From contig NC_088786.1 in NCBI RefSeq assembly GCF_949628265.1, positions 15,810,001-15,874,000 of the forward strand: a stretch of DNA of 64,000 nt, read 5' to 3'. This DNA is from Cloeon dipterum. Lineage: Eukaryota; Arthropoda; Insecta; Ephemeroptera; Baetidae. Both the position numbers and the translations under genes were made by a program. The notes below the pieces were generated by a model that saw only the letters and a program-made list of their open reading frames with translations, was not told the origin of the DNA and searched no databases. This document shows positions 1 to 57,159 of this stretch, piece after piece; the first letter of the stretch is position 1, and each line of letters starts with the position of its first letter.

Positions 1-3000
1 TTTACACAGCCGAGAAGAGCGGGCGGGAGCGAAAAGTTTTGTTGGTCGGGGTAGCCTAGCAACAAGGGGCAGCACAGCATCCGCTCGCATCGACCAGACT
101 GCTTGCTGCCTTTGTTTGAGCGCGCGGCTCCATTTAGACAAGTGAGTGTATGTGTGTGTTTGTACGCGGCGCGGCGCGGCCAGGCGAGCTCGAGCGAACG
201 GCGGCGAACGCACACGCAGGGATGATCGTTCGCTTCCGTCAAACGTAACGTTCCGTGCGATAATTTATCTCACAATTTCTATTCATCAAAATTAGCAGGG
301 CAGTCTTTTGTTCCAGCCACTGCGCTCACAAAAGCGGCTTATTAGAATATATTACGACCGACTGTTCGCAAATTACGCTGGCCGGGAAAACTTTTCGGTC
401 CGGCATGTTTATTAATGCGAGCGCAGAGTTTTAATGCGGCCTACGTGGGGAAAAACTCGTTGCAACCGGTCGAGGTGTGTTTTTTAAACAGGCCTCGTTG
501 CTATTCTCTTTTATCCCTGGCAATGTTGGATGTGAAACTAGTGTTTTCGTGTGCGCCAAGCTATTTTCCCTTGCTAATTTCCACTTTCAAAGGCGTTTGT
601 TCCTCTGAAATACGAAAATTCAATTCCACGCGAGCGCAGGTGACTGAAACGGACCCCTTTGTTGAATTTTGCTAGAAACTGAATTTAATTTTCACAACAA
701 AACGCCAATTTCGTGCTTTTCTGTTTTCTGACCGAGTCGTGCGAGAGCGTAGAGAGTGAAGTGCGCTCATCAAAGGGGAATGTGTATTCCATTTCGTCAT
801 TAAATTTTAACCCTTCCTCTCCGCCATCCCTTGACAAAGCTCGTCCGACGCAGGGTCAAAGGCCAATTTCATTTTTTTGTGGGGAAGTTCGGCCAGGGGT
901 TGAACAACTCGCGGCAATGACAGAATCGAATTTTCTTCCAAAAGTTCAGCGGCTGTGAAATTGATTTTTGAGCGAGGGCGCGATTCCTTTCATGTCTAAT
1001 TTGCAATGGAAAAAAGAGAGCGAAAGCTGTTTAATTTTTCAGTTGGAGGGCGGCCGTGCTAAATTATTAACGCGCCTTCATCGTTTCAGCGTGCAATAAT
1101 GCAGTATACATTATTATCTTGCTCGTCTTGCCCGTCCGCCCGCCTTTTGAGGCGACCGTGCGCCGAGCACGTCGACAGCGGTTATGCAGTCCGCCGGGCA
1201 AATGTGTTGCACGGCTTGCATAACCTCGAACATAGCTCACCAGAAAGGGTAGAGGCGTGTGACTGTGTAACAACGACGCTTGCTTCGTTTCCAGCCATTA
1301 TTATTCTCTCTGCCTCGGCCTGTGTGCTCAATTTCCAGCTGCAGCTTCTTCTTGGGCAAGCGTGACCCTTTTTCTAAAGAGTCATTTGCGAGAAATAGAT
1401 CCCAATCTATTTATCTCTGGTGAGAGAGCCGAGGGGTATGCAAATGGAGGTTTACGATGCCATTACTTCCAGTCAAATCGCCTGAGATAGATAGGGCTCT
1501 TTTGTCAACCAAAGGTGTTCACCTCGGCACAGCTGACAGTTTTTTTCTAAGCGGAGACTCGCAAGGAGGAAAATGCTACTTCTTTCACACTTGTTTAAAT
1601 TTTACTTATTTGAATATACCATCCTTAAATCTAAAAATGACCAAGATGACTTGTGTTGCTTTTTCCCTCTGCATTGAAAACAAATTTTTTTTGGAAAGAA
1701 AAATCGGCTTTAGCCATGAAGATATGAAAACTCAGAGCGTTTAATACGTCATCTCTAATTGAATTACCACAGTTTCGACTGCTGGCCATGGTACTATTTC
1801 ACGAACAATGGGTATTTTAACTACACATAATTTCAAATTTATTTTTGTGAAATTTTAACAATAAAACATTACACTGAATGAACAAAATACATATTAGATA
1901 ACGTGACAAAACTTGCACAACACTCGCAATATCACAACCATTCGTTTCCATTGGGATACAGTTGGAGATCTAGAAAATTGAAAAGAGCCTGTGGATAAGA
2001 ATGGAATTTGAGGAAATTATTGTAATATCCTTGATTTTGAAAATGTAATTAAATAACTCAGATACCAAACGAGTTAAGTTTATAACGAATTTTTAAAATA
2101 TTAAGTGATAAATTATTCAAGAGTATATTACCAAAATTGCTAAACAAAAAAGAAACTTCTGAGTAAAATCTTGAGCACTCAAAATTCTAGGAGCTTGCAC
2201 TTGCATCTCATGAAAACTGTAAGTTAATATGTTTAGTTAACTGTTTTATTGGAACTTTCAACACTATAGCATATATCATTGAATTTGAACCTGGCTCATT
2301 TTTCTAATTTTAAGTTTAGTCAGAGGCCGAAACTGCAGCAGAGTTTAGGATTAGATTAGATTTTCCCTCTCTTCAAATTATTCAAATGAAATATTGTGTC
2401 AATATTTTTGTCGTGATTTGCATTTATTTTATTGGATTTTGGTTACATCGATTAAAACAACCTGCATTTATAGAGTCCCGAACACATAATATCTATTATA
2501 TCATGAACTTTATTTGCGGAATTCAACTGGCATAATACACACCACGTTTTTGAAATGTGTCGTTTAGAAGTCAGCAGGTGCCACGTAATTACAATATGTA
2601 TTTCCACTGTGCTCCCCGTTCTAAATAATAAAACTGGGGAGCAGGTAGCGAGTGGCTGCCCGGCATAAGGTGGGCCATTGTTACATTCACAAAATTACCT
2701 GGGCCTCTTTGCAAACAAGAAACGCCACTCATTGAATGCATTTCCACCAGCGGTTTTTTCTCATTATTCTTATTTTCACAAAGACAACATAATATATATA
2801 GTCGGGGAAAGCACCTCGTAGCCTCCTTTATTTATTAACCCACTCGAACACGCGGCCGTTTTTTATTCGAACAATAGCGGCAAGCAGAGACGGACAAATC
2901 CACTAATGCACCATATTTTACACGATTATAAGTGCGCGAGCCGGTTTACTCGTCTGAATGCAAAATACATAAACTGCTGCAAAAACACACTGCTTGTTTG

Positions 3001-3200
3001 CCAGAGGGATTTTCGACGAGAGATGCTCTCCAACGCTCTCGCTCCCATTTTTCATTTCCTAAACGAGGATTTATGTTGCAACGAGTTTAGTGGTACGTGA
3101 TAAATCTATGGAAAGGTTGTAACGCCAGAAATGAAATCCTCTCACGCTGATATTACTAAATTTTTATTTCGTTTACTCAGCGCGTCCCTCCTGCGAACGC
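1..3200. other. non-coding stretch, GC-rich left edge
   Basis: No convincing coding exon is seen on either strand; open frames are short and compositionally random. The first 230 bases are very GC/CpG-rich with runs of GCG and GAGCG, like a CpG-island promoter or 5' UTR whose gene would lie left of the window. From about 1.75 kb to 2.9 kb the sequence becomes AT-rich and featureless. I infer regulatory, intronic or intergenic DNA near the mir-124 locus. Confidence 0.4.
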
Positions 3201-3589
3201 GCCAACGCGGAAAACATCAAAATTGAAAGGAAAAAATTGCGCCATCACTCAATTTCCAATTCAAAGCAGACGCTGCTCCTTTCGCAACACTTGCTCTCCT
3301 GCGCTCGCCATCCCTGTGCAAGGAGCTGAAAGTGCAAATACGTACGAATACGTTACGTGTGCCCCGCGACCGTTTCCCCACAGCACGCTGAAGAGTGTGT
3401 GTATTTGTGTGTTGTCGAAAAAGAGAGAAAAAACTCGTGCACACACACATACACACTCTCGAGAGTGGCATTACTCAAATGTATGCACGCATTCTGACTG
3501 TGTGCGAGAGGTGGGAGGGGGTGGCTGAGGGGGAGGACGCATGCATGCACCGCAGGCAGGGGTGGTATGTGCTGTCTGTCATGTATTTG

Positions 3590-4250
3590 TGAATCACAGA
3601 GCGAGCGAGCGAGAGGGTGAAATGAAATAAAAATTATCCAAAATACAAAACGCGCGCCGTGCCAGCGGGGGGAGGTTTTCGGTTTTTGGTCGGGTGGGCG
3701 GCCGGGGCAGGCAGGCAGGCAGGCGAGCGGCCGGGGCGGGCGGGAGAGGGTGGCAAAGAGAGCGCCCCGTGCACGCTCGCTCGCTCACTCACTCTCCGGC
3801 AGCGGCGGCGGCGGCAGCAGCAGCAGCAGCGGCGGCGGCGGCAGCACAACCACCACCACCGCGAAGCCACCTTCGCATGCGCCACCCCCTCCTCCCCGGG
3901 CCGGCTTTTTTACACTAAAAAAGCCCCTGCATGGCGAAAGCTGGGTGCAAAAGGCTAGGATTCCGGCTGGCAGCCATCGCGCCTGCCTAGTACGCGGAAA
4001 GGTTGCTCTCGCTTGCTGCTCCGTCCTGTCTGTTTGCTGCATCGATTGAGCGCCAGCCCCATGTAGCGGGGGTTCGTTTCGGCCTCACTCAGTCTGCTGC
4101 AGAACCTAATAGCCATGGGACGTGCCCCTGCTGCCGTCGTGTCTCATGCAACTCTTTAGCGTGTCCGCCGCTCGTCCGCCACTCGCTCTTCCGACCCGTC
4201 GCCTCCGCGTCAGGCAGCTCCACTGGTGAGACCTGATGCATCTTTTTGCA
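3590..4250. promoter_or_regulatory. CpG-island-like segment with CGG/CAG repeats
   Basis: A GC-rich, CpG-dense block contains a mixed GGC/CAG trinucleotide run at about 3797-3845, GAGC tetranucleotide repeats at 3600-3612 and GGCA repeats at 3708-3725. A splice-donor-like GTGAGA follows at about 4225 on the plus strand. This composition suits a promoter plus non-coding first exon, about 4 kb upstream of the mir-124 hairpin and on the same strand. Linking it to the mir-124 transcript is inference only; no TATA box or other decisive promoter element was identified. Confidence 0.3.
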
Positions 4251-5997
4251 GCTTGCAAATTTTTGCATCCCCCGCCGGCTTTAACTTTCTCTTGCAGGTT
4301 TCCGTTGCTCGTCGACGCTGGGGGATGAGAGAGCTCTTTCGGATATCCAACGCCACGGCCACGCTTTGCATTTTCACTCCACGGTTGTTCTCATTTGAAA
4401 ATTTATATTTTTCCGCGTTCAATTTTCCCAGATTCCGGTCCTCGTGCATTTTCTTCCCGCTGAAACACACACATAACACTTTTGGCTCAAATCCTCAACG
4501 AAAATCGATTTATTCAAATGTAACATCCCAGAGCAATTTATTCCGGCGAACCCTCGCCCCGTCTCGGAAAAGCAGGCACGCTTCCAACTGCGCAGTAGTT
4601 TGCCCAAAACGCGTCGCCGAGTTAGCGAGCGAGTGGCCAGCAGGCCGGTCCGGCCATTTAAAAGGGCCGAAATTTAAAAAGGACCCAGCCGCGACGCTGG
4701 CTGGCTTGCTTCCCGATGATGATAGTGGCGTATCGATCTGTGATTATAGCCTCCCCTTGTCGCCCCACCACCCCCGCGCCTTCCCCAAAGACCTTGCTAC
4801 TTTGTGTGTTGGCCAGGGTCTTTTAAATGCACACTCACTCGCGCCGACAAGGGCAATGCACCGTCGAATGCTCTCGCGCGCGGCCCGTTAAGGAGACTTT
4901 CATTCGCACACGCACACCACCCTCCTTATCGGCCCTTCCATTCATTGTTGGCCGAGGTGTTCTCATTATTGTTTGTGCTTTTAATGGTTTGTTGTTTCTT
5001 TTCCAGCTGCCGCGCCTCGCACGCTTGGTACCCTTGAGTTTTTCCCACCCACCGCAATTGCTTTTTGTCGTGTGTGTGTTTCCCACCTTTTGCCGCCGGG
5101 AATTACGAAACACAATTTTTCTCTCGCCGAGCAGCTTCGCCCACGCGGCTCTAGGTTACACACTCCGATTTTATCTCTTCTCATGGTCGAATAAATAATA
5201 TATAATAATAGCGGCACCGGCGAGAGACGTGATTAGATTATGCAGTGTGATATAATGTCGATGGCGGATATTCAAAAGTTGCGTCACTTCTTTTCTCTCT
5301 CTCTTTCTACTCGTTCGCTCGCTCTCCGTTTCTTTCCCCTTTCGAATTCGATATCAAACCCCGGCGTCGGCCGCTGGCCCCGCCGCGCGTCCGTTTCCGC
5401 ACGCGAGTGCAAAGAAGTAAGAGAAAGTCACGCCTGGGCTGCAACCGAAGAGGCAGGCAGGCACGTGACACGCCAGGGGCGAGCGGCAGGAAGTGCATTC
5501 ATCATACAGTGGCTAGTGCTTCTCACATGCCAGCCGCCACGATAAGAAAGGCAATTTGGATGCTAATGAGTAAGCCGCAATCGATGCTGTTTCGTTCGTT
5601 CACATACCGAATTGCGTACCTTGATTTCGGCCCGTACATAACTCGTAAATATGAAACCGACGCCGCGTGGAGATTTAATTTGAAAAACGAGCTAAGAGAA
5701 AGACACACGACCGATGCAGTTTTAAATCATTTTGGCCCGGCGGGGGTGCGCTCGGTAGGCCGCTATCAATTTATTCCAGTCCACTTACCAGATGAATTAT
5801 CTTCCACGCTATTAATTCAAAATCCGGTCTGGCTGGCTCGCTCTGCACCGAGGCGAGCTGCCAAATCTAGTCTCTCTCGCGCGCGCGTGCATGCACCCGC
5901 TGACCGTGAGAAAATAATAAGCGAGGGGAGGTGAGGCGTGCTCTATCTTTCCACCCACCGCCTCTTAAATAATAATTCGCGGCCCGTGCTAATGACA

Positions 5998-6000
<3 letters not shown>

Positions 6001-6088
<88 letters not shown>
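6001..6088 (+). repeat. (TC)44 microsatellite
   Basis: Eighty-eight bases of uninterrupted TC. A shorter CT run lies at 6461-6482. On the minus strand it reads GAGAG, the core of GAGA-factor sites. Confidence 0.95.
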
Positions 6089-6093
<5 letters not shown>

Positions 6094-8010
6094 CGGCCTG
6101 AAAAGAAAAGTGCGACGCCGCCGCTCGCAGTCCTGTTTTCGTCCTCCGCCTCCACAATTGTTGCAACCGAAAGGAGGTGGTTGAAGCCGCGCGCGCGCTG
6201 CCGTGGGGCGGAATAATAAAAATGTATAAGTGCCGTGACTTTTGTAGTGCAGTGTATTTTATCGAGCGATGGGTGCGGTTGTATCACGACAGCTAGCCTG
6301 GCCGAAAACAATGTTGTTTCGTCGCATTCGCTTCTTCCCTCCAATTGAATGCTTTTTTTATCGTGCCCATAAATTATTTTGCCCTATTTTTCATCCGCCA
6401 GCTTGTTATCGGCCGAGAGGAGTCGCGTTGAACAATCTAGCTTTAGCGAACAGACCGAGACTCTCTCTCTCTCTCTCTCTCTTTCTCTTTCGGACGGCTG
6501 TTTGACTTAAAAAAGTGCAACAAGCAAAATTATTTTGATTCGACCTTTTGCCCGATCGAACGCGTGGGCGAATTCGCGGCCGTGCTAAGTGAGCGAGCTA
6601 GCGAGATAAAGTGCTTTCGTTTGTTGTAATGCGGTGTCCAATTTACGCCGGCGTAATTGAAACCGTACAAGGCACGAAGGCTACGCATTCTTAGGAAGCC
6701 GTAACTGCTGCTGCTGCTGTGCACCTGCGGGCCTAATGGCTCTTTTGCTGCTACAGAGCCGGCAAGATTACTCGCACAGGCGGAAAATCTAAAGTTGGTC
6801 TGACCCAAATTGATGCACCCAGCGGGGGCCGCACAGTTCTCAGCCGGTTAGCCAACCCGATCGGTCGGGGTACGGGGGAAAATGCGATTTTCGCCGCTAA
6901 ACGCCGCAAGCAAACCGGGCGAGCGCGAATTAGCCAGCCCGGCCAACAGCTAATTCACCTTTATTTCTCCTTCATATTCGCGTCGCATTTGATGCAAATT
7001 TCCCATCCAACGCACGGTGTGTTCCAAGCGTGCATGAATTAATTGCATGTCAGACAGGCTATTAAATGCAGTGGAGGCGAACGATACGGCGATAAAATCG
7101 CTCGATCCAGAGCCTGGATTACATATTTTCTGTGTTTTGCACTGACAGTGCAGTTGTCATGCACAAACCGACGAGTGTTCATCTTTCCAAGGGAGCTGGC
7201 TTCACAAGGGGGTGGTGGTTTCGGGATCGATACCCCGCACCAGCTCCCTTTGAGGCACGCGACCCTCTCACATGTGACGTCACCAAGAAGCAGTTCATGT
7301 GTGTGTATGTGTGTGTGTGTTCGCCTGGCTGAGTTGTGTGTGTGTATTGTTAGCATCTACCGTTTTTTCGCACGGTCTCGTTGTGTGTGTGTGCATGTGA
7401 CGGGATTTGCCAGTATACTAGCAAGCTTGCCTCCCTTCCGTGTGAGGCAGAATCAAGCCACGGAAATTCTGCCATTTGATTGATACCCGTCGTCCCTTCA
7501 GTGACTTTTTGTTCGATCGATCCAGCTTAAAAATACAAACTGTTTCCCAAATAATGCCCTTCTTAATCAGCCTGCATTTCAAACTTTTCCAATTTCGGCG
7601 CGGCAGCCGTCTGTCCGGTAATTTAATCTTGTGAACACTTCTGCACCACCTGCTGCTCGCTAACATGTTTGCCATTGCTCGGGCAACTTTTACGATCGAG
7701 ATATAAAGTACTATGTGGAGCTGTGCGTCTTTAATTCGTGTGATTGTGACGCGTTTGCCCCTGTCAATTAATAATTTATGTCCCCCTAGAAATAGTAACG
7801 ATGCAGTCCACAAATATAATAAGCGGGAAAAGGAAAGTCGGCACCTGCCCCGAGCATAATGGGAATCGATTGCGTCACCACCATCCACCATGCTCATCAA
7901 TAACCGGCCTGAGCGACGCACCGAAAAAATATGTACAATGAAGACGTGCGATATTGATTCATCAACAGTCAGCCGACTCTCGCCCTGCCATGCAACCTAT
8001 CAGATCATCG

Positions 8011-8106
8011 TGATGAGCTTTTCTCCTCGTGTTCACTGTTGGCCATGTGTCACAATTCAAAACATAAGGCACGCGGTGAATGCCAAGAGAGAGCTAACTT
8101 TCATCA
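8011..8106 (+). ncRNA. mir-124: mir-124 microRNA precursor hairpin
   Basis: The 23 bases at 8065-8087 match the mature miR-124-3p as I know it, beginning TAAGGCACGCGGTGAATGCC. The 5' arm (about 8028-8049, starting CGTGTTCAC) pairs with it: GTGTTCAC faces GTGAATGC through Watson-Crick and G-U pairs. The terminal loop is around ACAATTCAAAAC. Flanking pairing continues outward (TGATGA at 8011 against TCATCA at 8101), giving a hairpin of about 95 nt. miR-124 is a neuron-enriched microRNA conserved across bilaterians that represses non-neuronal mRNAs. No overlapping protein gene is visible, so the host is probably a non-coding transcript. Its strand is plus by identity of the mature sequence. Confidence 0.95.
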
Positions 8107-8765
8107 GAAGAACGAGATTTGTGATGTATATATCGAATATTATGCTTGTACCACTGTTAAATTTTTCTAATAAAGTAGCACGGACATATAGTTTGTTCAC
8201 TTGAAGCGCACCTGTTTGTAATTCGAAGTTCTGGAATGCCTCCTTCTCTGCATCTTGTTTTATTTTTGTATTTGACGTAGAGGAAAGTAGACGAGAAAGG
8301 CATTGCATTATCCCTGCAATAAAAAGGCACCTAAATGGGAGCACGCACGAACAGACCACCCAGGGTGAAAAATAGTACTTTCCAGGTGTCACCAACAGTC
8401 TCAGTGTCTTTGCAACAGCGGCATCGATTCCATTTTACAAATTTCATGGCACAGGTTGGGAAAAATAACCTCGGCCGGCACTTCATTGCACCGCCCAGAG
8501 GCAATCTTCGAGATGAGTGCGCGGCGTGCCAAATTTCCTTCCCGACTTACGTCCGTAGCAACAAAGTGGAGGAGGAAATGCGACGGCAGGTAAGAGCAGA
8601 GAGCTGGGCAAATAAGAAAGTAACATTAAAAGGGCGCGAGGGAGGAGAGACGTATGAGCTGGTCCAGATTGGGTTCGTGTCACCTCAGTCAGCCTACCTT
8701 TTCCCTGTCGCCTTCCCTCCATTTTGGCACTGGTCGCTGAGTGAATGGGAGAGAAAGAGAGGGAG

Positions 8766-8768
<3 letters not shown>

Positions 8769-8801
<33 letters not shown>
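8769..8801 (+). repeat. (GA)16 microsatellite
   Basis: Uninterrupted GA tract of 33 bases, about 0.7 kb downstream of the mir-124 hairpin. Confidence 0.95.
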
Positions 8802-8803
<2 letters not shown>

Positions 8804-8819
8804 TTCCTTCTTTTTCCGT

Positions 8820-11800
8820 ACGGGGGTAGCGAGTGTGTGCGTTGAGCTACTGCAAAGTTAAAGACCCGAAATATCGACCAGCCCATTAGCTCTCAGTGCT
8901 CCATGATGTAACCATGGCTACCAGACGACCGAGGAGGAACGGTGCGAGTTAGGCAACCAGCGACTCACCTACTTGAGAGTAATATAAAACGATCACTGTG
9001 ATGAGGAGCCATCATCCCCCGACCGCACCACCATCAAGGCTCCATCGCGCGTGCTTTATGAGGCTCGTCAATCATTTTTATTGTTGCGTCACTTTACTCG
9101 CGCAGCTACACACTATTAGCAACAATGCAAAATGACACAAGCGGGAAAAACTCGTGTCGAGCGTCAACGCTGGCGTAGCGCCTTTGTTTCTTCCGGTTGC
9201 TACGAAAAGCAGGATTAAAACGCTTTGCATGGGGAATTTCGCCGTCTTACAATTCCATCCCCAGTTTTACAGAGCTTCGTCTTTAAATTTTATAGCCCAC
9301 TCTGTAGTTTTGATATAATCCATCTGGTATTCAAAGGCGTCTGCATGAAACGTACCAACTCTTATCTCCTTGTGCATGGGAGAAATTGAATAGTTTACCT
9401 CCACAAAATTGGCTGTTATTCTTCTAGCAGGAAAAAATGTCCCCATAACCTAAAAATGGCCTTTCTTATCAGCCGCACTTAAAAACTTAAAAAGTTTAAC
9501 GTCCTCACACGAGGAGAGTATGGCACTCTGCTCTCGTGGAACGTTCTAAAATGAAAATTTTAGCCCATCCTTCGTACGTTGCTTGCTTTTCCAGGTCAGC
9601 TCTCAACAATAACGTGCAGCAGTGGCATAGATGGCGATTTTAATTTCAGTCGTTTGAGGAGCATCAAAGTTGGAAAGGAGATGAACTCATCACGAGATTA
9701 ACATCAGCACCCCACTTTCTTCCGGCCCGGCCTTTGAAAGAAGCAAAACAGCCCTTTGAGAAGTTCTCGTTAGCTAAATATGCTTTAGAAAAAATGGCCA
9801 TCAGACCCTTGACGTCGTTTGTGCGTGGAAAGCAGCTCCTCGCCTCTTCGGCTCTGCTCTGCGGAAAATCTGCAGTGCCTGCTGTAATTTCTTTCGCCCC
9901 TTTTGAACTCTGGCTGAGTGCTATGGGCTCTAGATTATTTTTCGGGATGATTTCCACCCCCCTGCGGTTTTAAATTCAAAAGAACCACGTCGGTTTGGTT
10001 TTTTCACATCCTCGCAATTTGGAAAAATTAAACCTGCTAACTTTCTGGAGGAACTTTTCAGACCGATTTATGAAAATTTCCGCGCTCTCTGTCATGTTTG
10101 AAAAGCCTTTCGCCGCTCTCTTTTTAAAGCTAATCTTTTCAGATAGAGCTTTAAAAATAAAAGTACTCGGAAAAGTTTCCCAGGGCCAATTGCATGAGCT
10201 GGCAGATTAATTCCGCGTGCAAAAGTTCAAACCAAATAGCTCTCTCTTTCTTTGAAATGAAAGAGCGCGCGGCCTTGTTGCGTTTAAACTGTATTGATCT
10301 GCTGACGAGTCTTTTAGAACTCTCAATTTCTACCGCCGCATCAGATCTTCAAGTCACGTAAAATTGCTAACAGCTGAAGGTTTTTGGCAAGGACTCTCGC
10401 GCCACCCTCACTCCACATTCAGCACGAGCCGGTTTGCACCAAATTTCCCTCTTTTTGTTTACAACCACTGCCTTTGTTTCCTCGACACCATCATTTCAAC
10501 AAGCGCCGTTTCGATCGTCAATAACAACGAATTGTGTGCGTTTCTTTTCTAGGACATATTTTAGAAAAGTGGCTTTCCGAAAAACGCAGGAAACAAACAT
10601 TGTATTGCTTGTGGAAGAAATTGCATTGATTTGTTTGCAATGGTTTCGGTCAGCGCGTACTATAATCTGTGTTCCTAAATGACAAACGCAAACCTTTTTC
10701 ATCAGGCCACCATCTCGCATTCTTCTTTTTAATCACGCTGCAAACCGCCAACGTGCCTTTTTTATTTTGTTCCGGTGCACAGCGGTAGCAGTGCAATTAA
10801 ATAAATCACGACGAGCACAGCATGGCGTCAGCACAAGAGCAAACAAATGCGGGGCCACACCGCTTATGTCGTATAAATATGCCATTAAAATTTGTAGACA
10901 TATGTGCGATCTCGGCCACGGTGTGTTTAATGACAAGTGAGCGGCGCGGTGTATTTTAATAACTTTTCATTTTATCGCACCACTGCGTGCATTTTACGAC
11001 CCCGCTGGCTGCAAGAGAGAAAGAGAGCCGGCGAGAGCGCAAAATAATCATCGCAAGAGAGGGTGGAACCTCATTTCGTATACCGTCTAGTTATACAACA
11101 ATATCTCTGCTGATGACGTGGCCCCCCGATCGTCCACCACCCCCTCCTCCGCGTGGCTCAGCACCGCCGTTGCTAATAATGAAAACTGGACACACATGAC
11201 ATGCACCCCCCGCGTACGTAATGTTGCACAATGCATCCTGGTAGGAACGCTCGCGACACTCGCACCCCTTTCATTAATTTAATTAATGTTGGGAAAACGA
11301 AAGCGCAAGCCACAGAGTATGTCGAGTTCTTGTGCATTTGATCAGTATCTCTTGTGTTTGTTCGCGTCCTCCTCCGCCTTCCAATCTAGAGTGCTTTGAT
11401 CTTGCTAATAATTAAAAACAAAGTGCACTTGACTGATTGTCAAGACATTAGAACTATGGTTGTGTTTAACGCAATGTTTAAATAAAAGATTAAAAATTAA
11501 AATCACCCTCTACTTTTGTAGCACAATAATATATACTTGACAGTAGCAGAGATTTGAGATACAAGTTTTACTAGGGAGCTCATTTAAATATTTTCCCCTA
11601 TTTCTTATGAACATATTGCATTGACGATACACATCGCTGCACATTTGAATGCGTGCCTGAAATAAATTTAATATTAATTGTTGATTACTCTGGCAAGAAT
11701 TTTATACATAAAAAAGGGTTATCATACGCAAAGCCGGAATAAAATTTGGGAAAATTTTCGTTTGGATCTAGCACGGAGTAAATATTCTGTCACCTTTTAG

Positions 11801-31817: not shown

Positions 31818-31889
31818 GACTCCGTGGCGCAATGGTAGCGCGTCGGACTCCAGTTCCGAAGGCTGCGTGTTCGAGTCACGTCGGGGTCA
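31818..31889 (+). tRNA. tRNA-Trp (anticodon CCA)
   Basis: Seventy-two bases fold as a complete cloverleaf. The acceptor stem is GACTCCG/CGGGGTC, the D arm GCGC-AATGGTA-GCGC, and the anticodon stem TCGGA/TCCGA encloses loop CTCCAGT with anticodon CCA at 31850-31852. The T arm is GCGTG-TTCGAGT-CACGT, with discriminator A. No intron is present. It closely resembles insect tRNA-Trp, and the internal A and B boxes are intact. A short T run follows about 6 bases downstream, suitable for Pol III termination. It is almost certainly functional. Confidence 0.97.
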
Positions 31890-47838: not shown

Positions 47839-48581
47839 GGCCGAATCTCAAGCAGCACGCTGATGGTCGGCTGTCCGGTCTCGCGGACGCATGAGGAAGT
47901 CCAGGTAGGTGGTGTGCAGGCTGTTTTCCTTTTCCGAGCTCGAGTTCTCGGCCTCTTGCAGGGAGATGAGGTCGACGGACGGCAACGCCGGCGCTGCCAG
48001 AGCGTCCAGGTTGGCAAGGCTTCTGCTGGTGTGGCAGTCGATTTCCATCGTGGTCGACGGGTCGTTTGGGTCAGCCAGCTCAGTTTCAATCTCAGGGAAG
48101 AGGTCCGCGACGCCCGAGTCGTCCAGCTGGGACTTGCTCTTCTTGGGCAGGATGGAACGGACGGCCTCCTCGGTCTCCCACTCGCTCACCGTCTTGCGAT
48201 GCTTCAGGCTGTTCTGCGTCATACCGCTGTTGGTCGGCCGGATCTCGCGCAGCACGCTAATGGTCGGCTGTCCGGTCTCGCGGGACAGCTTCAATCTCTC
48301 GTAGTTCGAGTAGGCCCAGTACTGTTGTATGTCCTCGATCTCCACGATCCGGGTGCTCGTCTTATGCAGCACGGAGTTCACAAGCACCTTCTTGTGCAGG
48401 CTTTTGCTGCGGCGGATGGTGCGAGAGTGGGCGATCTTATTCCACAAAATGTTGTAGAGATGGTGCGCCTCGGATAGCATGGCCGCCAACGAAGGGCTGC
48501 TTTTCTGGCTCTGCATGCTGGACAGAGGTCGCGGGGAAGGGTTCTATGGAGACCACTGGAACAGGTGAGCAAGGTACACTG
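47839..48581 (-). pseudogene. rearranged duplicate of the IER2/5-like gene
   Basis: A diverged, internally reshuffled copy of the intact gene at 56152-56994. A 222-codon frame remains open (48516 to 47848, minus) and keeps the N-terminal IER domain (AMLSEAHHLYNILWNKIAHS...). Block order differs. In gene direction: parent 57060-56767 (leader, IER domain), then parent 56608-56300 (the RETGQ block to SLANLDA), then parent 56715-56561 (the SVDLISLQEAE block and a second, partial RETGQ block). A 2-bp deletion near the end of the last block shifts the frame, so the parental RETGQ motif is not read there. The parental C-terminal tail is absent. Its 5' leader is severed by a hAT-like insertion and resumes at 52686. 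I call it a probable pseudogene, though a short N-terminal-domain protein is conceivable. Confidence 0.8.
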
Positions 48582-48683
48582 CAGAGCTCTGCACGGGTGT
48601 AGATGTGCGGGTAGAAACCCGCGGTTAACCTCACCGCGTGGCTAGGGATGGGCGGTACTTTTCATTTGAACTCGGTGGGTGCG

Positions 48684-49941
48684 GTTTCACTTGCTTAGAA
48701 ACACCAATGGGGCCTAGGGTAGACCAAGGAAGGTCAAAATCGACCTTCAGGGTCTGTCCCTGACGTGACCCTGAGATCCGAAATATCGAAAATTTCCAAT
48801 TTCATCAAACTTGGTGTCCTTTAATAGGTTTTCACCACCGTAGAGCTCAAATATACAGCCAAAACTGCCGAATGACAATCCTGAAACCGGTTCTTGAAAT
48901 AATTGTGGTATTAGACATAATTCCAGATTATGTTAAAAATGGTCAAATTTTGAAATCTTAAATTTATGAAAAGATTCTTCTGTTTTGTACACACGAAATT
49001 TATATTGAGTTTTAAAAAAACCGATCGTTTTTTTTACAAAGTTAACAAATTTATTTAGAGCAATAACAAATAAATTACATGTTTAAAATTTTTACTTTAA
49101 AAGTAAGGAAACAAATTTTTTTAGTTTTTAAAAGTAGATTATTTGTTATTGCATTTAATAACATTTTTTCATAGCATTAAGCATAAGATCCTTTATTATC
49201 AGTACATATTATACTTCATATGTGCAAAATAGAAGTATCTTTTCATAAATTAAAAATTTCAAAATTTTGACCATTTCACACCGTCTGGATTAATGGCTAC
49301 CACAATTATTTCAAGAACCGGTTTCAGGATTGTCATTCGGCAGTTTTGGCTGTATATTTGAGCTCTACGGTGGTGAAAACCTATTAAAGGCAGGGTTCGC
49401 CAATTTTGCAATGCGCAAAAATGCACCACTGTTTTTTTGCGCAAAAAACCCAAAAAACCGGCTGGAAAAACCCACCAGTTTTAGGTTTTTATGCATTTTT
49501 CCGAATTTAATCCGAAAATAGTCAATTTTCGCTTGAAAAGAGTCTGAAATTTCAGAAAACTATGCAGAGAGTTAAAATTTTCAGTCTCTTGGTGGAACCA
49601 GTGGCTCTAATACTGATTTTGGGGATTTTGAAAAATCCCTTTTTTTGTTCATCCATCATGAGATTTTTGTATTTTCCATAAGAATGCATGTGTTTCGGAA
49701 AAATGCGCAAAATTGCAGAAAAACCTGCAAAAAAACAGTTTTTTGCAATGCAGTGGGTTTTTCCGGAAAAATGCGGGTTTTTGCGAACCCTGAAAGGACA
49801 CCAAGTTTGATGAAATTGGAAATTTTCGATATTTCGGATCTCAGGGTCACGTCAGGGTCACGTCAGGGATGGACCCTGAAGGTTGATTTTGACCTTCCTT
49901 GGTCTACCCTAGGCCACATTGGTGTTTCTAAGCAAGTGAAA
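48684..49941. mobile_element. foldback element with ~425-bp diverged arms
   Basis: The left arm (about 48685-49100) is an imperfect reverse complement of the right arm (about 49110-49941), starting TTTCACTTGCTTAGAAACAC at the left and ending with its complement at the right. Without the nested insertion it would be about 850 bp and almost entirely self-complementary. A possible 4-bp target duplication TGCG flanks it (48680-48683 and 49942-49945). The arms have many mismatches and small indels, so it is old. Confidence 0.7.
49391..49792. mobile_element. nested 402-bp MITE inside the foldback arm
   Basis: It begins CAGGGTTCGC and ends with the exact complement GCGAACCCTG, and is flanked by the 5-bp direct repeat AAAGG (49386-49390 and 49793-49797). 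The other foldback arm (around 48823-48835) shows the uninterrupted sequence with one AAAGG equivalent, proving insertion. The interior is rich in TGCGCAAAA/TTTTGCGCA motifs. No coding sequence. Confidence 0.8.
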
Positions 49942-50618
49942 TGCGAAAAAAATCAACTTGAAGAACAAAAGGTGAACTCGCTGAGTCGCTGCTCAAAGTC
50001 CACGCGCGGTAAAGCGGCCTCGAGCAGGTTTTCAAACTTCAAATTCGAATTGCAGCAAAAGTATCGCGATTGCACCTATGAAACTTGGTGTGCTTGTGCA
50101 GAATTTCACGGGCTACATTTCAGACCTGAACCCCAAAAAATCGTAGGGGGCTATCATCCCTTAATTTTGAATTTTCAAAAAAAGGTCGCAAAAGGTGACC
50201 TTGACCTTCGACCTGCGAATTTTTTGTAAATGCAAAAGTTGTTCAGGATCAAAAACTAGGTTGGGCAGTGAAAATTTCAAGGTGATACCTCAATGCAGTC
50301 ATGAATTGCAGTTTAGAATTCATTAACACATTTCGTTTATCGGGTATTTTTAGATACCGAAAAAATAGGGAACGCCCCCATTCCCGAGTTTCAAATTTGG
50401 AATTTCACCATCTATTATTAACAAGTACTTTAAGTAAATATAACTGCCACCTAAAAATTTCTTCGCTGAAAAATCGCGTCCAATTGACCTCCAATCTCGC
50501 GAATAAATGCAATAAATGATCGAATTTTTTATTTGACACTGACGAAAAGATAGGAATATAATATTCGACCAGGTTTTGGCATCAAAAATACTTGATATTT
50601 TGGCCGACTTTATGATGT

Positions 50619-50839
50619 GCGTGAAACCGAAATGTTCGGCGTCGAAACAGCCGAAATCGGCTGCCGAAGAGGGAGGCGTAACCGAGGGAATGCAATATGG
50701 CAGCGCACCACGCCCCCTATGAGCGGGGAGCAGTGCTGTGTCCGCGCCGCCATATTGTATTCCCCTTGTTACGCTCCCCTTTTCGGCAGCTTGATTTTGG
50801 ATGTATCGACGCCGAACGCTGAACATTTTGGTTTCACGC
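50619..50839. mobile_element. 221-bp hairpin element
   Basis: The left end GCGTGAAACCGAAATGTTCG is the near-complement of the right end (CGAACGCTGAACATTTTGGT...). The arms remain alignable for about 90 bp each with small indels, meeting near 50,725. It abuts the large inverted repeat that begins at 50854. Confidence 0.65.
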
Positions 50840-50853
50840 CGCAAAGCGCAAAG

Positions 50854-52535
50854 GACGATTTTCGCGATAGGATTAAGGGTAATTGTCAATTTTTACCGAC
50901 TTTATTTGCCCATCCTGAAATTTACATATGTTGTTAGGGGTGTTTCATAGTGTGTAACCTGAAATTTTGAGCAAAAAATTCGGGGGCTCTTTTTGGGAAA
51001 TCGCGATTTTCGAAAATTGAAAACTTCAGATAGTAAATCCGAAATATCAAGGTATCTTCGGTCCAGATTGGAATTTCGATGTGGTTTTTTCACCTCCAGG
51101 CGTAACTTTTTGAGTAGAACATGTTTGCCATTGGTAAAAAATTTGTAGGTCAAAGGTCAAGGTCACAAATTCGCATGCCAAATGTTCAATTAAAAATATC
51201 GCAAAATACACCCCCTCGGATTTTTTTCATGAAAACGTAAAAAATGTAGCCCTGAATGCGTAAGAGCGAATGGTCAAGAGAAATCGATGGGCACTCTCAT
51301 AGATCGCGAGATATTTTGAATTTAAGGATTCGTGTTGGGCGTCCGGCACGACTACAACATCATCCGGCGATTTTGTTTTCGTCATTTACGTCGGAATTTG
51401 ATCTGTAACCCCACATGTTATGCATATGATTACCTAAAAAAATAAACGAGCTTTCCAGTGGTGTGCTTAAAATTTGTTTTGATCTCAAAATTTTCAAGTA
51501 ATAGCGGCGCGCGAAAAGAAAATATAAAATTTTCAAATATTGACATTTTTGCAAATCTCAAATCTCGGGTTCTAACCATCAGAATTGCAAAAACTACCCA
51601 CCGTTGGACTCGTCTCGACCTGCCCTGACCAGCTGAAAGGTTTAGGGGTGCTTTTTACCCCCTACCCCTAAGTTTATATACTTCAACCCCTCGAAAAAGG
51701 TAAAAAAATGTAGCGTCTTAGGGGTAGGGGGTAAAAAGCACCCCTAAACCTTTCAGCTGGTCAGGGCAGGTCGAGACGAGTCCAACGGTGGGTAGTTTTT
51801 GCAATTCTGATGGTTAGAACCCGAGATTTGAGATTTGCAAAAATGTCAATATTTGAAAATTTTATATTTTCTTTTCGCGCGCCGCTATTACTTGAAAATT
51901 TTGAGATCAAAACAAATTTTAAGCACACCACTGGAAAGCTCGTTTATTTTTCTAGGTAATCATATGCATAACATGTGGGGTTACAGATCAAATTCCGACG
52001 TAAATGACGAAAACAAAATCGCCGGATGATGTTGTAGTCGTGCCGGACGCCCAACACGAATCCTTAAATTCAAAATATCTCGCGATCTATGAGAGTGCCC
52101 ATCGATTTCTCTTGACCATTCGCTCTTACGCATTCAGGGCTACATTTTTTACGTTTTCATGAAAAAAATCCGAGGGGGCGTATTTTGCGATATTTTTAAT
52201 TGAACATTTGGCATGCGAATTTGTGACCTTGACCTTTGACCTACAAATTTTTTACCAATGGCAAACATGTTCTACTCAAAAAGTTACGCCTGGAGGTGAA
52301 AAAACCACATCGAAATTCCAATCTGGACCGAAGATACCTTGATATTTCGGATTTACTATCTGAAGTTTTCAATTTTCGAAAATCGCGATTTCCCAAAAAG
52401 AGCCCCCGAATTTTTTGCTCAAAATTTCAGGTTACACACTATGAAACACCCCTAACAACATATGTAAATTTCAGGATGGGCAAATAAAGTCGGTAATAAT
52501 TGACAATTACCCTTAATCCTATCGCGAAAATCGTC
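50854..52535. repeat. near-perfect 1,682-bp inverted repeat (819-bp arms, 44-bp loop)
   Basis: Arms 50854-51672 and 51717-52535 are reverse complements in strict register: every pair of coordinates sums to 103389, so there are no indels. I noticed only three mismatches. The spacer is 51673-51716. Beyond 50854 and 52535 the complementarity stops abruptly. The arms contain no meaningful coding sequence. This is either a foldback transposon or a recent inverted duplication. If transcribed, it would form an 819-bp RNA duplex. Confidence 0.95.
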
Positions 52536-52685
52536 AAAGGCGAAAAATTTTAAGTATGAATTTCAAGGTGCGGGTTTTATGGAACGAACCTTCCCGCGGG
52601 TGCGGGTTGGGTGCGGCTTCAAATTTAGAATTCCGTGGTTTGGTGCGTGTCAAAAAATCCACCCATGCAGGGCTTTAGCACACTG

Positions 52686-56151: not shown

Positions 56152-56994
56152 TCAGACGGTCATGGCGATGAAGCCGGATCTGTCTCTTAACGAATCACTC
56201 AGCTGCTCCTTTGCCTGCGCCGAGCACAGATCGGGCGTGGACACCGTCCGGGTCAGCTTGCCCGTCGACGCCGGCGCGTTGCCGGACGACGCAGCAGCCG
56301 CCGCAGCGTCCAGGTTGGCAAGGCTGCCGAAGCTGAAGATGGACACAAGGCTGGTGATGCGGTCGATTTCCATCGTGGTCGACGGGTCGTTTGGGTCGGC
56401 CAGCTCAGTTTCGATCTCGGAGAAGAGGTCCGCGACGCCCGAGTCGTCCAGCTGGGACTTGCTCTTCTTGGGCAGGATGGACAGGACGGCCTCCTCAGTC
56501 TCCCACTCGCTCACCGTCTTGCGACGCTTCAGGCTGTTCTGCGTCTCACCGCTGTTGGTCGGCCGAATCTCACGCAGCACGCTGATGGTCGGCTGTCCGG
56601 TCTCGCGGACGCGTGAGTCCAAGTCCAGGTAGGTGGTGGGCAGGCTGTTTTCCTTGTCAGAGCTTGAGTCCTCGGCCTCTTGCAGGGAGATGAGATCGGC
56701 GGACGGCGACGCCGGTTGCAGGAAATCCTCACCGGGCAACAGGTCGTCCTCCTTCAGGTCATCGAGGGACAGCTTCAAGCTCTCGCAGTTCGAGTAGGCC
56801 CAGCACTGTTGCGTGTCCTCCACGATCTGGTTGCGCGTCTTGTGCAGCACGGAGGCCACAAGCAGGTTCTTGTGCAGGCTGATGCCGCCGCGGATGGTGC
56901 GAGAGCGGGCGATCTTATTCAGCGAAATGTTGTAGAGGCGGTGCGCCTCGGTTAGCATGGCCGCCACCGAAGGGCTGCTCTTCTGGCTCTGCAT
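56152..56994 (-). CDS. IER2/IER5-like immediate early response protein, single exon
   Basis: A 280-aa intronless gene. Residues about 12-60 (AMLTEAHRLYNISLNKIARS, then RGGISLHKNLLVASVLHKTR) match the N-terminal domain of the vertebrate immediate early response family (IER2, IER5, IER5L; compare RGGLRLHRSLQLSLVMRSAR). That domain defines serum- and stress-induced nuclear regulators linked to PP2A and HSF1. The rest is acidic and low-complexity, with a conserved RETGQPTISVLREIRP segment, a basic LPKKSK stretch that may act in nuclear import, and an Ala-rich run. It starts at the first ATG after a leader of roughly 165 bp, and stops at TGA 56154-56152. The intronless structure fits the family. 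A rearranged copy lies 8.3 kb away. Family assignment rests on the N-terminal domain; which paralogue it represents is not resolved. Confidence 0.8.
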   Translation of the reverse strand: MQSQKSSPSVAAMLTEAHRLYNISLNKIARSRTIRGGISLHKNLLVASVLHKTRNQIVEDTQQCWAYSNCESLKLSLDDLKEDDLLPGEDFLQPASPSADLISLQEAEDSSSDKENSLPTTYLDLDSRVRETGQPTISVLREIRPTNSGETQNSLKRRKTVSEWETEEAVLSILPKKSKSQLDDSGVADLFSEIETELADPNDPSTTMEIDRITSLVSIFSFGSLANLDAAAAAASSGNAPASTGKLTRTVSTPDLCSAQAKEQLSDSLRDRSGFIAMTV

Positions 56995-57159
56995 GCTGGA
57001 CAGAGGTCGCGGGCAAGGGTTCTATGGACACCACTGGAACGGGTAGGCAAGGTACACTGAGGCGCTATAGCAGCGATCGAAGCACGACTGACACACAACC
57101 GCTCTTCAGCGTGGCCAGTAACAGAATGCGAGTCGCGAGTCGTTCGCTGCACTTCGGCT

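Follow-up and report, generated by a model that had tools for sequence, protein, structure and literature searches.

A near-perfect inverted repeat in Cloeon dipterum as a copy of a dispersed palindromic DNA transposon family

Among the described mobile elements, Galileo of Drosophila, a foldback-like member of the P superfamily, offers the closest comparison to the locus analysed here. The terminal inverted repeats (TIRs) of the same Galileo copy are reported to be 98–100% identical, with subfamily means of 92–97% (PMC3573991), and conversion between copies and chimeric copies have been proposed (PMC3573991, PMC2775673). The target-site duplications of Galileo are 7 bp long, and published inversion breakpoints carry chimeric Galileo copies, between which the duplications have been exchanged, as a mark (PMC2775673). 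Sola2 elements are reported to generate 4-bp AT-rich duplications and carry TIRs of 12–21 bp together with a transposase (PMC3627910). Hairpin-RNA (hpRNA) loci of Drosophila form another class of long inverted repeats, which are recognised by Dcr-2-dependent 21–22-nt RNAs and a primary transcript (PMC10317233).

We analysed an inverted repeat in a 64,000-nt stretch of the Cloeon dipterum genome (contig NC_088786.1, positions 15,810,001 to 15,874,000; hereafter the window, by whose own numbering positions are given). Analysis of the window and of the same genome indicated, with a probability of about 0.97, that the feature belongs, as a complete copy, to a dispersed, non-autonomous and non-coding palindromic DNA transposon family of the foldback/MITE type. 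The combination of this reading with sequence exchange between arms is, as a whole, highly probable.

Structure and surroundings of the inverted repeat

Comparison of the two arms revealed that 816 of 819 positions are complementary without a gap, with mismatches at 50892, 51210, and 51437, and that a loop of 44 nt separates them, in agreement with the original prediction of indel-free, reverse-complementary arms with few mismatches around such a loop (Table 1). A repeat finder gave identical arm coordinates (its identity rounded to 100%), and pairing directly outside 50854 is at the background level. The central 401 nt (51500–51900) fold with −339 kcal/mol versus a mean of −96 kcal/mol for 100 shuffles (z = −39). 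A chance origin of the inverted repeat is excluded. The longest reading frame wholly within the element, with ATG, GTG, and TTG accepted as start codons, encodes 83 aa.

Table 1. Coordinates of the palindromic element and of the insertion that contains it, in window positions
Feature	Position	Strand
Older insertion of ~4.1 kb, holding the palindrome and other repeats; flanks GTACACTG/GCACACTG	48582..52677	
Left target-site duplication AAAG, 4 bp	50850..50853	
Left arm of the palindromic element, 819 nt	50854..51672	+
Type-A terminal 19 nt GACGATTTTCGCGATAGGA; type-B copies have GTGTGTGTTCRGGAGTCTT instead	50854..50872	+
Loop, 44 nt, A-type loop sequence	51673..51716	+
Right arm, 819 nt, 3 mismatches vs left arm	51717..52535	-
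Type-A terminal 19 nt, right end	52517..52535	-
Right target-site duplication AAAG, 4 bp	52536..52539	

A paralogous stretch, located at about 57054, lacks the insertion that holds the palindrome. The two ends of this insertion resemble each other, and by eye it appears to be hAT-like. The stretches 47897–48588 and 56350–57134, about 8.5 kb apart, are duplicated and 88–95% identical, and the second is free of the 4.1-kb insertion. The adjoining foldback with diverged arms, which had also been predicted, is real and occupies 48685–49941, with its arms (48685–49002 and 49210–49941) in pieces that are 84–100% complementary. Immediately left of the palindrome lies a short inverted repeat (50660–50790), whose 47-nt arms are 83% complementary. 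A stretch of 50–80 nt at 50195–50274 is 70–80% similar to part of the arms and contains a GTGACCTTGACCTTYGACCT-like motif, and may be what is left of an older relative. The window also carries a mir-124 precursor (8021–8091, + strand, 63.5 bits) and a tRNA-Trp (CCA) (31818–31889, + strand).

Dispersed copies, target sites, and termini

An arm search of the same genome (190 Mb in 10 contigs, with the window in C1), with scoring limited to the 40 best of 1839 first-look candidates, gave 80 matches at many places. Apart from the window itself, the matches are mostly full-length, often form oppositely oriented pairs, and are 92–97% identical to the window arm. Searches with the termini, allowing up to three mismatches, detected 83 type-A and 107 type-B ends (100 of the 107 B ends listed), while the reversed control patterns gave 0 matches in the same genome search. 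Pairing of the listed ends within 2.5 kb yielded at least 69 two-ended copies, 29 with A and 40 with B ends, all copy counts being lower bounds at this mismatch threshold and with 100 of the 107 B places listed. The length of 55 of these 69 copies is 1600–1720 nt. The persistence of so unstable a structure, which had been considered notable, is not unique to this locus, and signs of loss are found in the family: the other 14 of the 69 copies fall below 1600 nt, and for 45 of the 183 listed ends (25 A and 20 B) pairing over 2.5 kb gave no partner. L011, L015, L019, and L025 each keep one complete arm and have lost part of the other. Such shortened copies are expected because the palindrome is unstable. 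At C5:2.557–2.576 Mb, the three ends L061, L066, and L071 share the same internal deletion (arm 1–409, followed by 692–819 inverted), with two of these ends lying 8054 nt apart, and they are probably tandemly duplicated DNA with a deleted copy.

The 4 bp flanking the element are identical in 33 of 37 two-ended copies and in all six further B copies fetched regardless of similarity, which gives 39 of 43 overall. Flush 4-bp repeats are missing from L021, which has a 6-bp repeat, and from L051, which has a 5-bp repeat shifted by one base. In L024 and L009 the repeat is imperfect, with one and two mismatches, respectively. The window copy is flanked by AAAG; among copies the 4-mers vary, and many are AT-rich, with ACCT, CAGC, and AACG also present. 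The piggyBac elements have a TTAA target-site duplication, and TTAA-specific insertion of the piggyBac type was rejected on the variety of these 4-mers. A query for the empty site of the window palindrome gave no match across the junction in the genome. Dispersed copies with the same ends, a target-site duplication of fixed length, and no coding capacity are what was found here, as in non-autonomous inverted-repeat DNA transposons.

These copies also bear on two other explanations of the window feature. A one-off inverted duplication or an assembly artefact would give near-identical arms at a single place, but dozens of other loci have the same ends, the same length, and 4-bp duplications, which leaves this explanation with next to no probability. 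An artefact at the window locus is in itself very unlikely, because the structure recurs at dozens of loci and the flanking duplication is perfect in 39 of 43 cases. The original prediction had proposed a candidate hpRNA (endo-siRNA) locus, the transcript of which would fold into an 819-bp duplex suited to Dicer-2. At a dedicated locus of this kind, a Dicer would cut the duplex into siRNAs against a target, and selection would keep the arms paired. The near-perfect 819-bp duplex with its short loop has the long inverted repeat of such a locus, the RNase III domains of this genome, present at three sites, are compatible with Drosha and two Dicers (an inferred assignment), and the arms of Drosophila hpRNAs can derive from transposons (PMC10317233). 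However, the window copy is one of dozens dispersed with transposon-like 4-bp duplications, and no tested feature distinguishes it from the other copies; a dedicated hpRNA locus is therefore very improbable. The palindrome shares with Drosophila hpRNA loci a near-perfect long inverted repeat, and differs from them in being a dispersed mobile family. Copies of such a family may still yield siRNAs as a by-product. A transposon is sufficient to explain what is seen in the sequence. The genome search for other copies, suggested with the prediction as a check, led to a transposon family of 69 two-ended copies, with 4-bp duplications in 39 of 43, in place of a special RNA locus.

Comparison of the A and B copies revealed that they have common arms of about 800 nt from TTAAGGG inward, with a median divergence of 7.8%, whereas the outer 19 nt (GACGATTTTCGCGATAGGA in A and GTGTGTGTTCRGGAGTCTT in B) are unrelated between the types. 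The loops are likewise of two types, and in L028 a B-type loop lies between A ends. Within 2.5 kb, no listed A end faces a neighbouring listed B end; the closest pair of this kind, at C1:23.6 Mb, is separated by 9.7 kb.

No transposase-bearing partner with A or B ends was found in the same genome. The exact 14-nt A terminus occurs at 78 places, 72 of which are listed family ends and six of which lie in unrelated sequence; for the 17-nt B terminus, 88 of 89 places are listed family ends, and the remaining one is at C5:24068823. Reading inward for about 1 kb covered 20 A ends, namely 19 that lack a listed partner and L067, which belongs to a paired copy of 815 bp. For nine of the 20, the sequence beyond the arm was inspected; it belongs to truncated or rearranged copies, and no transposase was recognised in it by eye. 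Two candidates were rejected. The B-ended L049 (C2:7975900-7985300, 128-9267; 8.9 kb), considered as a coding parent, is a B copy whose centre has been replaced, with about 8 kb of inserts between arm remnants and inverted repeats reaching about 110 nt past the ends; some of its open frames appear to resemble a LINE reverse transcriptase. L069 leads into a frame of a clustered host gene family (92 matches). At this place (L069/L072, C3:6.60 Mb) the frames are Cys/His-rich and zinc-finger-like, the 92 matches are to one 168-aa piece, and the frame family is located mostly in C3:5.3–7.4 Mb and C5:29–32.4 Mb. A distant-mode search of a phage collection gave no match. An autonomous partner may no longer exist, may have ends that have diverged, or may lie in DNA missing from the assembly.

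Similarity of arms within and between copies

To compare arms, loci L009–L048, picked by similarity to the window arm, were limited to those with two oppositely oriented arm matches longer than 700 nt (31 of 40), and six B copies (from 20 sought) were added regardless of similarity, giving 37. The median arm divergence within these 37 two-armed copies is 0.88%, and the medians between copies are 5.9% (A–A), 3.5% (B–B), and 7.8% (A–B). In the maximum-likelihood tree, the two arms of a copy group as sisters for 25 of 31 copies, and for 28 of 37 once the six B copies are included, versus at most 4 sister pairs per trial in 2000 trials of random tip pairing. Among the private substitutions of the 31 copies, 72 are present in both arms of one copy and 122 in one arm only, the window copy having 5 and 2, respectively.

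The differences that remain between arms are patchy. In the clustering test, which took in the 16 copies whose arms differ at 8 or more positions, the differences are clustered, with a longer clean run than even spacing would give, in 9 copies (p < 0.05, uncorrected; 5 of them at p < 0.003), and significant clustering is absent in 7. Both states occur in other copies at 224 of the 346 arm differences. Many of the differences therefore resemble tracts brought in from elsewhere more than fresh mutations. A GC bias, a possible mark of conversion, is a trend only (p = 0.08). Homogenisation of the arms is incomplete, because 9 of 37 copies have non-sister arms, 7 of 16 copies lack clustering, and 122 private substitutions are confined to one arm. 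The predicted maintenance of arm similarity by gene conversion gains support from arms that are closer within than between copies and from the patchiness of their residual differences.

Copies such as L009, L012, L017, and L028 are mosaic, which indicates that sequence is also exchanged between copies. In L009 (C3:12052400-12057100, 1530-3214; C3:12.05 Mb), 52 of 798 positions differ between the arms, the two arms come from separate clades, and the flanking 4-mers differ at two positions. This chimeric copy is likely a recombinant and a candidate rearrangement breakpoint. Its reciprocal partner was sought at one place, C3:0.60 Mb, where the second arm is missing beyond the loop, leaving the partner unconfirmed.

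We propose that a transposase encoded elsewhere would act on the termini of the palindrome and insert copies through a 4-bp staggered cut, generating the 4-bp target-site duplications. Sequence would afterwards pass between the arms of one copy, most probably through gene conversion or through template switching via a cruciform or hairpin, whereby new mutations would spread to both arms or vanish; exchange between different copies would produce the mosaics. Judged from the sequences compared, exchange between the arms of one copy is likely. The arms could also be alike since each new transposon copy is born from one arm, by hairpin or snap-back copying at transposition, and the sister arms in 28 of 37 copies, the 72 private substitutions found in both arms, and the young-looking copies whose arms differ at 0–1 positions fit such a birth too. 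If the arms were copied at birth, private changes should be spread evenly, but the residual differences form tracts where copies vary among themselves (9 of 16 copies; 224 of 346 differences), and mosaics such as the four named above exist; later conversion from other copies could nevertheless still yield tracts. On balance, we consider this origin of the similarity rather unlikely. The tracts favour exchange after the birth of a copy, and we lean towards gene conversion in place, a route inferred at the molecular level, over copying during transposition.

An extension of arm exchange to the termini is more doubtful. One arm might gain a new end from another element, and copying of this end to the other arm would give a matched pair of termini. 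Such terminus capture would let a palindrome without a protein of its own switch transposase, with A and B representing two captures; we regard it as a speculative and improbable origin of the two types.

Relation to known elements and implications

As in the two-TIR copies of Galileo, long TIRs make up most of the non-coding copy, and arms of the same copy are more alike. Unlike Galileo with its 7-bp duplication, the palindrome family has one of 4 bp, and membership in Galileo was rejected on this length. The family resembles MITEs and foldback elements in being non-coding, multicopy, and bounded by inverted repeats and target-site duplications, but it is longer than typical MITEs and is almost all arm, with about 800 nt in each and a loop of about 45–55 nt. 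The 4-bp duplications are common to the family and Sola2, whereas the arms of about 800 nt are its own, and neither a transposase nor end similarity to Sola2 was found. Duplications of 4 bp are also known from superfamilies other than Sola2. In the literature, judged mostly from the starts of abstracts, no description of the palindrome family was recognised. The similarity of same-copy arms has already been published for Galileo, so the palindrome family, though new, is of a familiar type.

The family makes homogenisation within copies measurable copy by copy in one genome, and extends the observation on Galileo to an element with 4-bp duplications. It also cautions that, in a genome of this sort, a long inverted repeat with near-perfect arms more probably represents a transposon copy than an RNAi gene. 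If the arms exchange sequence, arm identity would be no clock of insertion, and if terminus capture is true, the palindrome family would outlive any single transposase.
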